A stretch of 64,000 nt of DNA from Minicystis rosea (GTDB lineage Bacteria; Myxococcota_A; Polyangia; Polyangiales; Polyangiaceae). The notes below the pieces were generated by a model that saw only the letters and a program-made list of their open reading frames with translations, had not been told where the DNA came from and made no database searches. Made by a program: the position numbers and the translations under genes. Each line of letters starts with the position of its first letter. The first letter of the stretch is position 1. This document shows, piece after piece, positions 23,359 to 30,305 of this stretch. The DNA lies in the NCBI GenBank assembly GCA_001931535.1, contig CP016211.1:310001-374000 (forward strand), in the 5' to 3' direction.

Positions 23359-24360
23359 ATGCGCCATTTTCTCACGACCCAGGACTACACCCGCGCCGAG
23401 ATCGAGGCCCTCCTCGAGCGCGCCGCGCGCCTCAAGAAGCACCCGTACGATCGTCGCCTCCTCGAGCGCACGATCGCGCTGCTCTTCTTCAACCCCTCGC
23501 TGCGGACGCGATCGTCGTTCGACATCGGCATCCAGCAGCTCGGCGGTCACGCGGTCACGCTCGAGCCGGGCAAGGGCTCGTGGCCGATCGAGTTCGAAGA
23601 GGGCGCCGTCATGGACGGCGAGACCGAGGAGCACGTGCACGAGGTCGCCCGCGTCCTCTCGCGCTACGCGGATCTCATCGGTGTGCGCGCCTTCCCCAAG
23701 TTCCAAAAGTGGGAAGAGGATCGGCAAGACAAGGTGCTCGCGGGCTTCGCGCGCTACGCGACGGTGCCGGTCATCAACCTCGAGACCATCACGCACCCGT
23801 GTCAGGAGCTCGCGCTCGCGCTCGCGCTCAAGGAGCGCCTCGGCTCGCTCGACGGGAAGAAGTTCGTCCTGACGTGGACGTACCACCCGCGCCCGCTCAA
23901 CACCGCGGTGGCCAACTCGGCGGCGCTCATCGCATCGAAGCTCGGCATGGATGTCACGCTGCTCTGCCCCAACGAGCAGTACCTCCTCGACGAGCGCTAC
24001 ATGCAGGCCGCGCGCGACAACGCGGCCGCGAACGGCCGCTCGTTCACCGTCTCGCACGACATCGAGGAGGCCTACTCCGGGGCCAACGTCGTGTACGCCA
24101 AGAGCTGGGGCGCCATCCCGTACTTCGGCCGCTGGGACGAGGAGAAGCCGATGCGTGATCGGCACAAGCACTTCATCGTCGACGAGGCGAAGATGGCGCT
24201 GACCGACAACGGCCTCTTCTCCCACTGCTTGCCGGTGCGGCGGAACGTGAAGGTGACCGACGCGGTGATCGACTCGCCGCGCTCGCTCGTGATCGAAGAG
24301 GCGGAGAACCGTCTCCATGTGCAGAAGGCCGTGATGGACGCGCTCGTCAACGGGCTGTGA
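23359..24360 (+). CDS. argF': N-acetylornithine carbamoyltransferase
   Basis: 333 residues. It transfers the carbamoyl group to N-acetyl-L-ornithine, giving N-acetylcitrulline. Carbamoyl-phosphate motif FFNPSLRTRSSF (43-54) and HPCQE (146-150) are intact. The 80s loop reads MDGETEEH (85-92); a Glu here marks the acetylornithine enzymes, while succinylornithine enzymes have Pro. The segments FNPSLRTR, VRAFPKF, LTWTYHPRPLNTAVANSA and FSHCLPVRRNVK match the Xanthomonas-type enzyme, not ordinary ArgF. ATG 23359 gives the family's short N-terminus; 23296 (TTG) and 23320 (ATG) are upstream options. It is first in a six-gene operon, 7 bases before argG. Confidence 0.93.
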   Translation: MRHFLTTQDYTRAEIEALLERAARLKKHPYDRRLLERTIALLFFNPSLRTRSSFDIGIQQLGGHAVTLEPGKGSWPIEFEEGAVMDGETEEHVHEVARVLSRYADLIGVRAFPKFQKWEEDRQDKVLAGFARYATVPVINLETITHPCQELALALALKERLGSLDGKKFVLTWTYHPRPLNTAVANSAALIASKLGMDVTLLCPNEQYLLDERYMQAARDNAAANGRSFTVSHDIEEAYSGANVVYAKSWGAIPYFGRWDEEKPMRDRHKHFIVDEAKMALTDNGLFSHCLPVRRNVKVTDAVIDSPRSLVIEEAENRLHVQKAVMDALVNGL

Positions 24361-24367
24361 GGGATCG

Positions 24368-28074: not shown

Positions 28075-29028
28075 GTGCAGAAGATCACCATCGGCCTCGT
28101 GGGCGCGCGGGGCTACGTCGGCCGCGAGATCGTCGCCGTCCTCGCGAAGCATCCGCGCTTCGCGGTGAGCTTCGTCGTCTCGCGCACGCAGGCCGGGCAG
28201 CCCGTGGCCGAGCACCTCCCGGGCGCGCCGGCCGATCTCGTGTTCGAGGATCTCGGTCCGGATCAAGTCGCGCAGACGGGCGTGGACGCCGTGGTCCTCG
28301 CGCTCTCGAACGGCCAAGCCGAGCCTTACGTCGCCGCGATCGATCGCGTGCGTCCCGAGACGGTGATCGTCGACGTCAGCGCCGACTACCGCTTCCACAG
28401 CGGGTGGGCCTACGGCCTGCCCGAGCTCGGCCGCGATCGTCTCCGCGGCGCGCGTCGCATCGCCAACCCCGGCTGCTACGCCACCGCCATGGCGCTCGCG
28501 CTCGATCCGGTGCTCGACGTGATCGACGGGCCCGCGCACGCCTTCGGCATCTCGGGCTACAGCGGCGCCGGCGCCACGCCCTCGCCGCGCAACGACGTGG
28601 ACCTGCTGCGCGACAACATCATGCCGTACAGCGTGGTCGACCACGTGCACGAGCGTGAGGTCTCGCGCCAGGTCTCGACGGTCCATTTCGTGCCGCACGT
28701 CGCGCCGTTCTTCCGCGGCATCACGATGACGACCTCCTTCGCCGTCCGCCGCCACCCGTCGACCCTCGCGCTCCGCCAGATGTACCTGTCGCGCTACGCC
28801 GAGGAGCCGCTCGTCTCGGTCGTCGACGACATCCCGCTCGTGCGCGACGCGGCTGGCAAGCCGCACGCGACCATCGGCGGCATCACCGTGGCCCCCGACG
28901 GCACGCGCGCCGTGGTCGTCTCCACGCTCGACAACCTCCTGAAGGGCGCGGCCAGCCAAGCCGTGCAGAACCTCAACCTCGCCTTCGATCTGCCGGAGAC
29001 GATGGGGATCCTCCCGTGGCAAAGCTGA
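28075..29028 (+). CDS. argC: N-acetyl-gamma-glutamyl-phosphate reductase
   Basis: 317 residues. It reduces acetylglutamyl phosphate with NADPH to the semialdehyde. The N-terminal nucleotide motif GLVGARGYVGREIV, the catalytic Cys in NPGCYATAMAL and the later HVPFF-like segment (HFVPHVAPFFRG) are visible. GTG 28075 begins one base after the argB stop. Its last 13 bases overlap argH in another frame. Confidence 0.95.
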   Translation: MQKITIGLVGARGYVGREIVAVLAKHPRFAVSFVVSRTQAGQPVAEHLPGAPADLVFEDLGPDQVAQTGVDAVVLALSNGQAEPYVAAIDRVRPETVIVDVSADYRFHSGWAYGLPELGRDRLRGARRIANPGCYATAMALALDPVLDVIDGPAHAFGISGYSGAGATPSPRNDVDLLRDNIMPYSVVDHVHEREVSRQVSTVHFVPHVAPFFRGITMTTSFAVRRHPSTLALRQMYLSRYAEEPLVSVVDDIPLVRDAAGKPHATIGGITVAPDGTRAVVVSTLDNLLKGAASQAVQNLNLAFDLPETMGILPWQS

Positions 29029-30305
29029 TCTGGGACAAGGACGGCGCCGCCGTCGACACGCGCATCCAGCGCTTCCTCGCCGGCGACGACGTCGTCCTCG
29101 ATCGCGCGCTCTTCCTCCACGACATCCGCGCCTCCAAGGCCCACGTGCACGGCCTCGCCCGCATCGGCGTGGTCTCCGAGGCCGAGGCCACGGCCATCGA
29201 CGGCGCCCTCGACGATCTCGCGAAGGCCTTCGAGCGAGGCGAGTTCGTGCTCGACGATCGCTTCGAGGACGGCCACTCCGCCATCGAGGCCTACCTCACC
29301 GAGCGCCTCGGCGAGCCCGGCAAGAAGGTGCACACCGGCCGGAGCCGCAACGATCAAGTGCTGGTCGCGCTCCGCCTCTACGTGCGCGACGCGCTCGATC
29401 GCATTCATTCACATGTGAAGGATGCCGCCGCCGCCTTCCTCGACCGCGCCGAGGCCGACGCAGAGACGCCGATGCCGGGCTACACGCACCTGCAGCGCGC
29501 GGTGCCCTCGTCGGTGGGCCTGTGGCTCGCGGGCTTCGCCGAGGCGATGATCGACGACGCCGCCCTCGTGAGCGGCACGCGTCGCTGGATCGATGCCTGC
29601 CCGCTCGGCACGGCGGCCGGCTACGGCGTGAACCTGCCCCTCGATCGTCAAGGCGTGAGCGACGAGCTCGGCTTCTCGCGCCTGCTCGTGAACCCGGTGT
29701 ACGCGCAGAACAGCCGCGGCAAGCTCGAGCTCGGCGCGCTGATGGCGCTGCTCCAAGCGCTCTTCGACGTGCGCCGCTTCGCGTGGGACCTGTCGCTCTA
29801 CACGACCGCGGAGTTCGCCTTCGTGAAGCTCCCCGCGGAGTACGTGACGGGCTCCTCGATCATGCCCAACAAGAAGAACCCCGACGTCGTCGAGCTCCTC
29901 CGCGCCTCGACCGCGCCTGTGCTCGGCGCCATGGCCGAGGTGGAGAGCGTGCTCTCGCTGTCCTCGGGTTATCACCGCGATCTGCAAGCGACGAAGGGCC
30001 CGGTGCTGCGCGCGCTCGCGCATGGAATCGAAGCGCTCTCGCTGGTGCCGGATCTGGTGCGGCGGATGGACTTCGACCGGGCCGCGATGAAGGCGGCCAT
30101 CACGCCGGACATCTTCGCGACGGACGTCGCCGTGGAGCTGGCCGCCGCGGGCGTGCCGTTCCGCACGGCGTACCGGCAAGTGGCGGACAGCTTGGGATCG
30201 CTCGCGGCGCGGAAGCCCGAGGACAGCCTCGCGGCGCGCACGTCGCCGGGCGCGACCGGGAAGCTGATGCTGGACGTGCTGCGCGAGCGGCTCGCGACGG
30301 TCTGA
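29016..30305 (+). CDS. argH: Argininosuccinate lyase
   Basis: 429 residues, slightly shorter than the usual 455-470. It cleaves argininosuccinate to arginine and fumarate. The fumarase-superfamily signature GSSIMPNKKNPD, the HTGRSRNDQV motif and the catalytic His region TPMPGYTHLQRA are present. GTG 29016 lies inside the end of argC (13-base overlap), so translation is coupled. It is the last gene of the operon; no proB/proA follows. Confidence 0.95.
   Translation: MAKLIWDKDGAAVDTRIQRFLAGDDVVLDRALFLHDIRASKAHVHGLARIGVVSEAEATAIDGALDDLAKAFERGEFVLDDRFEDGHSAIEAYLTERLGEPGKKVHTGRSRNDQVLVALRLYVRDALDRIHSHVKDAAAAFLDRAEADAETPMPGYTHLQRAVPSSVGLWLAGFAEAMIDDAALVSGTRRWIDACPLGTAAGYGVNLPLDRQGVSDELGFSRLLVNPVYAQNSRGKLELGALMALLQALFDVRRFAWDLSLYTTAEFAFVKLPAEYVTGSSIMPNKKNPDVVELLRASTAPVLGAMAEVESVLSLSSGYHRDLQATKGPVLRALAHGIEALSLVPDLVRRMDFDRAAMKAAITPDIFATDVAVELAAAGVPFRTAYRQVADSLGSLAARKPEDSLAARTSPGATGKLMLDVLRERLATV

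Follow-up and report, generated by a model that had tools for sequence, protein, structure and literature searches.

A six-gene arginine locus in Minicystis rosea

We analysed a 64,000-nucleotide stretch of the Minicystis rosea chromosome (assembly GCA_001931535.1, contig CP016211.1, positions 310,001 to 374,000; hereafter the window, to whose numbering positions refer unless given in Mb). Six genes on the + strand at 23359-30305 follow one another in the order argF'-argG-argE-argBA (fused)-argC-argH, and are predicted to function as one operon. An earlier note, made from the sequence alone, had read them as an arginine operon working on acetylated intermediates, and all six genes were recovered at this location, each scoring over the cut-off of one curated NCBIfam model. 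The evidence set out below suggests that the operon very probably makes arginine via N-acetylcitrulline, with ArgF' as the likely sole carbamoyltransferase of arginine synthesis, acting on N-acetylornithine rather than on ornithine.

Product identities were taken from scores over the curated NCBIfam cut-offs, from Pfam domain cut-offs and from the best matching PDB chains. ArgF' reaches 572 bits against NF003384 (cut-off 288) and ArgE 440 bits against NF006439 (cut-off 345); the best structural match of ArgE is the acetylcitrulline deacetylase 2f7v at 334 bits, with the next structure at 82. ArgG passes NF003385 (614 bits, cut-off 603) and falls slightly below the cut-off of the general argG model TIGR00032 (266.4 versus 268.2). 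ArgC and ArgH pass TIGR01850 (291 bits, cut-off 234) and TIGR00838 (302 bits, cut-off 279.5) respectively, the C-terminal ASL_C2 domain of ArgH being under its Pfam cut-off (21.8 versus 27.3). ArgBA scores 672 bits with the acetylglutamate kinase model NF003387 (cut-off 426), 483 bits with the structure 3s6k and 453 bits with the NAGS/K structures 4kzt and 3s6g. Its kinase domain PF00696 and NAT domain PF04768 each exceed the Pfam cut-off; with an amino-acid kinase fused to a NAT domain it is, by domain composition, a bifunctional N-acetylglutamate synthase-kinase (NAGS-K), for which both activities are predicted. Closeness to the eukaryotic synthases gave no clear signal as a clue to origin in the scores of four NAGS-K proteins: for the window, Luteibacter, G068 and Lujinxingia these were 348, 350, 263 and 345 with yeast Arg5,6, and 113, 109, 108 and 130 with the NAT domain of mitochondrial N-acetylglutamate synthase (4k30).

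The carbamoyltransferase is, by sequence, of the acetylornithine type

The best PDB matches of ArgF' are chains of N-acetylornithine carbamoyltransferase (AOTCase; 3kzc and mutants thereof) at 517-520 bits. A second tier formed by 2g7m, 2fg6 and 1js1 lies at 176-179 bits; their records read putative ornithine carbamoyltransferase or transcarbamylase, and, while the records do not state so, we take them to be the succinylornithine enzyme (SOTCase) of Bacteroides. Structures named as ornithine carbamoyltransferase (OTC) score 165 bits or less. Furthermore, ArgF' lies below the cut-offs of the OTC models, the two best of which give 219 and 198 bits versus 306 and 281 (TIGR00658: 198 bits versus 280.85), and in a tree with three OTCs as the root, and without any SOTCase, it groups with AOTC-type sequences. 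The lack of OTC character asserted in the earlier note is thus borne out by both scores and tree.

Residues that discriminate the acyl-specific enzymes point the same way. According to the accessible part of a review (PMC4581275), Glu92, Asn185 and Lys302 in Xanthomonas numbering separate AOTCase from SOTCase, the latter having A/S/P/V/Q, P and V/I/E at these three positions. In the alignment to 3kzc the corresponding residues of ArgF' are Glu90, Asn181 and Lys298, and its E, N and K do not conform to the SOTCase pattern. This equivalence assumes a 20-residue tag on the solved chain, a numbering supported by the substrate residues: under it, Glu144 and Lys252 land on Glu142 and Lys248 of ArgF'. 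None of the five positions, the three discriminating and the two substrate ones, varies among the 105 AOTCase sequences aligned. The motif MDGETEEH, singled out earlier as the mark of an acetylornithine enzyme, indeed spans residues 85-92, and its discriminating glutamate is residue 90, equivalent to Xanthomonas Glu92. By these features ArgF' is an AOTCase, with a predicted preference for N-acetylornithine.

Two other substrates have to be weighed. AOTCase and SOTCase have close sequences and a common knotted fold (PMC4581275, accessible part), so that ArgF' might be imagined as a succinylornithine enzyme as in Bacteroides, in a pathway running on succinylated intermediates. The gap between 176-179 and 520 bits, the three acetyl-type residues and the match of the partner genes to an NAGS-K fusion and an acetylcitrulline deacetylase make this extremely improbable. 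Alternatively, ArgF' could work on ornithine in an ordinary linear pathway in which ArgE first deacetylates N-acetylornithine; the Xanthomonas campestris ArgE deacetylates acetylornithine as well as acetylcitrulline, according to the part of the published study available to us (PMC1865377), and free ornithine could form in this way. However, the OTC model scores below cut-off, the 165 bits of the best named OTC structure against 520 for AOTCase and the position among AOTC-type sequences in the OTC-rooted tree leave this option very improbable as well.

Layout of the locus

The genes are tightly packed (Table 1), with gaps of 7, 1, 9 and 1 bases from argF' to argC and a 13-base overlap of argC and argH. 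The argF' frame opens upstream at a TTG at 23296, and its start was placed at the ATG at 23359, the point from which the protein aligns with the Xanthomonas enzyme. The GC content of the operon is 0.692 versus 0.707 for the window. Rfam gave no matches in 22000-31000. Judged from their translations, two + strand frames further upstream resemble a glycerol-3-phosphate dehydrogenase (19536-22232) and an alpha/beta-hydrolase esterase (20441-23155).

Table 1. Genes of the arginine locus, with positions in the window
Gene	Position	Strand	Product	Evidence
argF'	23359..24360	+	N-acetylornithine carbamoyltransferase, 333 aa	3kzc 520 bits, NF003384, Glu90/Asn181/Lys298
argG	24368..25600	+	argininosuccinate synthase, 410 aa	NF003385
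argE	25602..26732	+	predicted N-acetylcitrulline deacetylase, M20 family, 376 aa	2f7v, NF006439
argBA	26742..28073	+	fused N-acetylglutamate kinase + NAT-domain N-acetylglutamate synthase, 443 aa	3s6k, NF003387, PF00696 + PF04768
argC	28075..29028	+	N-acetyl-gamma-glutamyl-phosphate reductase, 317 aa	TIGR01850
argH	29016..30305	+	argininosuccinate lyase, 429 aa; GTG start within argC	TIGR00838

Arginine genes in the rest of the genome and the predicted pathway

The genome is a single contig of 16,040,666 bp rated 99.98% complete. A search with PF00185 matched only argF' and a gene at 3.45 Mb, which is PyrB by NCBIfam (414 bits, cut-off 263); no canonical OTC was thus found in the genome, in line with the suggestion of the earlier note that an ordinary argF might be missing. 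Given that the OTC model exceeds its cut-off in 166 of the 193 genomes searched (see below), an OTC is usually found when present. ArgJ, likewise expected to be absent, had no match in the genome in a profile search that was positive in 10 of 14 control genomes. The parallel expectation for argA holds for the classical enzyme, as nothing full-length exceeded the TIGR01890 cut-off, short ArgA-type acetyltransferases not having been searched for; the two weak TIGR01890 matches are the operon ArgBA and a second ArgB. The operon argG is the sole TIGR00032 match in the genome, and among four argH matches only the operon copy exceeds the TIGR00838 cut-off. The aminotransferase is encoded outside the operon: an ArgD-type gene at 9.71 Mb, the best of ten PF00202 matches and the one on which the ArgD scan was made, scores 453 bits with TIGR00707 (cut-off 410).

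Assigning to each enzyme the reaction of its family, the NAT domain of ArgBA would form N-acetylglutamate from acetyl-CoA and glutamate, and its kinase domain would convert this to the phosphate, which ArgC would reduce to the semialdehyde. Transamination by ArgD would yield N-acetylornithine, to be carbamoylated by ArgF' to N-acetylcitrulline; ArgE would then remove the acetyl group to give citrulline, from which ArgG would make argininosuccinate and ArgH arginine. The same linear route is reported for X. campestris in the accessible part of PMC1865377. The order proposed earlier, carbamoylation before deacetylation, is supported by the AOTC-type ArgF', the 2f7v-like ArgE and the lack of a detectable OTC. 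Since no OTC was found, a free-ornithine route would be without a carbamoyltransferase, short of ArgF' using ornithine contrary to its type. Judged by its gene content, namely an acetylcitrulline-type deacetylase with neither OTC nor ArgJ detected in the genome, the pathway is of the acetylcitrulline kind. If the route is exclusive, other needs for ornithine would presumably be covered by arginine breakdown or by deacetylation of N-acetylornithine.

A second argC-argB pair lies on the minus strand at about 12.716-12.718 Mb (G000:C1:12716200-12719400; L048:8197-11345). Its stand-alone ArgB and ArgC score 210 bits with TIGR00761 (cut-off 151) and 362 bits with TIGR01850 (cut-off 234), and an M20 hydrolase that is under every cut-off among the 25 families shown adjoins the pair in the opposite orientation. 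Eleven loci of this second argB were read across the family, six in AOTCase genomes and five in genomes lacking the enzyme; a second argC is adjacent in nine and an M20 gene in eight. Five copies of this ArgB are 59-74% identical to one another and 32-42% identical to four canonical ArgB proteins. Given its occurrence across the family with and without AOTCase, and its own type of ArgB, the pair appears to be an older family feature that lies outside the operon. It may serve as a back-up for the operon or lead to a separate product.

Several observations weigh against an exclusive acetylcitrulline route or against reading the locus as its self-contained operon. Because of the second argC-argB pair, the operon may not be the only source of kinase and reductase. 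Absence of ArgJ is no hallmark of the AOTCase route, as Myxococcus xanthus is also without ArgJ according to the accessible part of PMC1865377, and an AOTCase gene alone is no proof of exclusive use of acetylcitrulline, because OTC coexists with it in half of the genomes that have it. NF003384 has three matches in the genome, the weakest of which is presumably a second PyrB stretch, the model matching PyrB in two stretches. Finally, no sigma-70-like promoter was seen in 22900-30800, which says little at 70% GC; ArgR was not searched for.

Distribution in the Polyangiaceae

The sample comprised 193 genomes, 108 of the family Polyangiaceae including M. rosea itself and 85 from elsewhere in its order and class. 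NF003384 exceeded its cut-off in 28 of the 193, all in the family (28 of 108, against 0 of 85 outside); a separate scan of named genomes placed AOTCase loci of related groups outside the family, for example in Lujinxingia and two Myxococcales bins. An OTC passing TIGR00658 accompanies AOTCase in fourteen of the 28 (judged on bits in 11 and on E-value in 3); G032 carries an OTC-like gene whose E-value puts it under that cut-off, and the remaining 13, including M. rosea, have none; as several of the 28 are incomplete drafts (one 67%), single absences are soft. Six of the 28, namely G069 and five genomes of genus g20, have ArgJ, against 11 of 12 comparison genomes without AOTCase; a canonical argB, taken as at least 230 bits, a line drawn after the scores were seen, was found in none of the 28 against 11 of the 12. 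The comparison genomes were picked by hand from 165, ten from the family and two from its order, and Fisher values on these comparisons ignore kinship and are not probabilities.

The layout of the other 27 family loci is graded. Three show all six genes in order (G032, G068 and G105), 17 have argF'-argBA-argC, five, all of genus g20, have argF'-argBA, and at two the contig ends after argBA. G067 and G040 carry argG-argE as a pair on a different contig from argF'-argBA-argC (L183:230-2469, L184:1380-3619); argG and argE exceed the NF003385 and NF006439 cut-offs in just 6 of the 40 genomes checked, none of them of genus g20, and we label argG and argE of this kind the Xanthomonas type. This genus includes Sorangium cellulosum; its five genomes with AOTCase also keep canonical OTC and ArgJ, and a sixth, G057, has no AOTCase over the cut-off. 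At the Sorangium loci (L052-L055, L058, L088-L090) we observed argF'-argBA in genomes carrying OTC and ArgJ as well, with no argE over the NF006439 cut-off.

The canonical set in this series of genomes is argC-argJ-argB-argH-argF. We infer that in this family an acetylated module has replaced canonical argB and argJ, and often argF, to differing degrees. A bolder and distinctly tentative extension is that the Polyangiaceae hold a live series of pathway replacement, running from the canonical set through the mixed Sorangium state and the three-gene module, with or without OTC, to the six-gene operon as the only route, the parts having moved or been lost separately. Were this so, mixed genomes would make N-acetylcitrulline beside ornithine, where it might possibly have a role of its own.

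Evolutionary history

The operon is not uniform in its nearest relatives. ArgF' of the window is 80-83% identical to five copies from the genus of Sorangium and sister to them at 100/100, and ArgBA is 71-72% identical to its Sorangium counterparts and sister at 100/99. The window argG and argE are instead sister to their counterparts in genus g41, where the argG-argE pair is split off (100/99 and 96/93); argG of g41 is 82-84% identical to that of the window, the argBA of G067 and G040 52%, and g41 argF' and argBA are placed elsewhere in the family. These different nearest kin suggest that parts of the operon were lost or moved separately.

The identical gene order in Xanthomonadales, the patchy presence of AOTCase in the sample and a neighbourhood of the AOTCase gene not common to relatives would all fit a recent horizontal transfer of the operon from Xanthomonadales; in 8001-52000 of the window, with frames of at least 150 aa, comparison with the AOTCase regions of 27 relatives yielded just four matches beyond the operon, all weak and scattered. 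Against this stand the Sorangium sister groups of ArgF' and ArgBA, as well as the GC content of the operon, close to that of the window. Moreover, the tree of argG, argE, argC and argH taken together splits Xanthomonadales from the window, the Polyangiaceae and Lujinxingia at 100/100, and the argG and argE trees keep Xanthomonadales apart from the window group at 100/100 and 97/96. Forcing the window with Xanthomonadales was rejected for ArgF' on a careful tree (p 0.017), marginally rejected on the quick four-gene tree (p 0.047) and not rejected on a quick ArgF' tree (p 0.33); we trust the careful ArgF' tree more because the quick free tree was suboptimal, 24 log units worse than one that it missed. 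On the strength of the sister groups, the tree splits and the two rejections, recent transfer from Xanthomonadales into M. rosea is disfavoured, and we regard it as unlikely.

A more ancient history is probable: either one or more old transfers into some Myxococcota, followed by lineage-wise loss of the canonical genes, or an ancestral operon lost in most lineages. The three layouts and the coexistence with OTC and ArgJ resemble stages of replacement, and the mosaic gene trees, with argF' and argBA next to Sorangium and argG and argE next to g41, agree with such a history. The direction is not fixed by the tests, which do not reject a grouping of Sorangium plus window with Xanthomonadales (ArgF' p 0.44; ArgBA p 0.20 on a quick tree). 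The family as a single clade passes for ArgF' (p 0.84 on the quick and 0.25 on the careful tree) and ArgBA (p 0.15, quick tree) and is marginally rejected for the four-gene set (p 0.044, quick tree). The carbamoyltransferase and ArgB-NAT trees called for in the earlier note place ArgF' among AOTCases and both proteins beside Sorangium, and do not separate transfer of the operon from deep common ancestry.

Significance

The pathway, the NAGS-K fusion and this type of operon are already known. As far as titles and abstract openings show, three things have not been published: the full operon in a myxobacterium, its graded presence in the family and, in Sorangium, its enzymes occurring together with OTC and ArgJ; our literature searches found no title or abstract opening on AOTCase or NAGS-K in myxobacteria. 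If our interpretation is correct, a complete acetylcitrulline operon for arginine serves a myxobacterium with a giant genome, called the largest bacterial genome then known in the accessible part of PMC8436480. Since half of the 28 AOTCase-bearing relatives also keep OTC, the swap of a whole pathway becomes testable in cultured genera. Furthermore, annotating a member of this carbamoyltransferase family as argF calls for a prior look at the three discriminating residues.

Comparison with other genomes and known systems

In the scan of named genomes, restricted to the best 80 loci, 66 have the order argF'-G-E-BA-C-H, mostly in Xanthomonadales; it is also complete in Lujinxingia vulgaris. Of the 66, 65 are plain and one carries an additional argH fragment; in three, the stretch read ends within argH. 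The tight packing in the window is not the rule, as in 51 of the 66 some neighbouring genes are more than 700 bases apart. The other 14 are three two-gene Sorangium loci, three from Planctomycetota or Vicinamibacteraceae, one with argH-argC reversed and seven with fewer genes, four of these truncated where the stretch read ends. The earlier description of the gene order as that of Xanthomonas holds at the level of the Xanthomonadales; the genus itself is not among these best 80 loci, and its exact order rests on the earlier note and on the accessible part of PMC1865377.

Two further arrangements were observed. In bins of Planctomycetota and Vicinamibacteraceae (L109, L146, L147) AOTCase has as its only nearby match an aminotransferase-like gene, 28-30% identical to the M. 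rosea ArgD. In other families (L176:8062-10679, L177:7951-9881) an M20 gene 29-33% identical to the operon ArgE adjoins an argB-like kinase-domain gene, possibly, as a guess from a motif, an ArgA-type synthase.

A close known counterpart is the X. campestris cluster, described in the accessible part of PMC1865377 as eight clustered arg genes with argD elsewhere. It shares with M. rosea an AOTCase in place of OTC, a fused NAGS-K, a linear pathway without ArgJ and the distant argD, and the gene order of the window is common to Xanthomonadales relatives. It differs in that the eight published genes include a GNAT gene labelled argA, whereas the window has six with no insert and no room between them for such a gene; we do not count this argA as defining the pathway, because no activity was found for it in X. 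campestris (PMC1865377, same part). A further difference is the extra, separate argC-argB pair of M. rosea. NAGS-K also occurs together with AOTCase in Maricaulis maris, Oceanicaulis and Parvularcula (PMC1865377 and PMC4490483, accessible parts), a co-occurrence shared by the window, whose ArgBA scores against the NAGS/K structures as given above; the likeness concerns gene content.

Within the family, the argF'-argBA module of Sorangium cellulosum holds the closest ArgF' and ArgBA among the matches listed; there, just two of the six genes are clustered, and the g20 genomes with AOTCase retain OTC and ArgJ. The SOTCase pathway of Bacteroides resembles that proposed here in having a knotted transcarbamylase that acts on an acylated substrate (PMC4581275, accessible part), and is distinguished from it by the other acyl group, all three diagnostic residues of the window enzyme being of the acetyl type.

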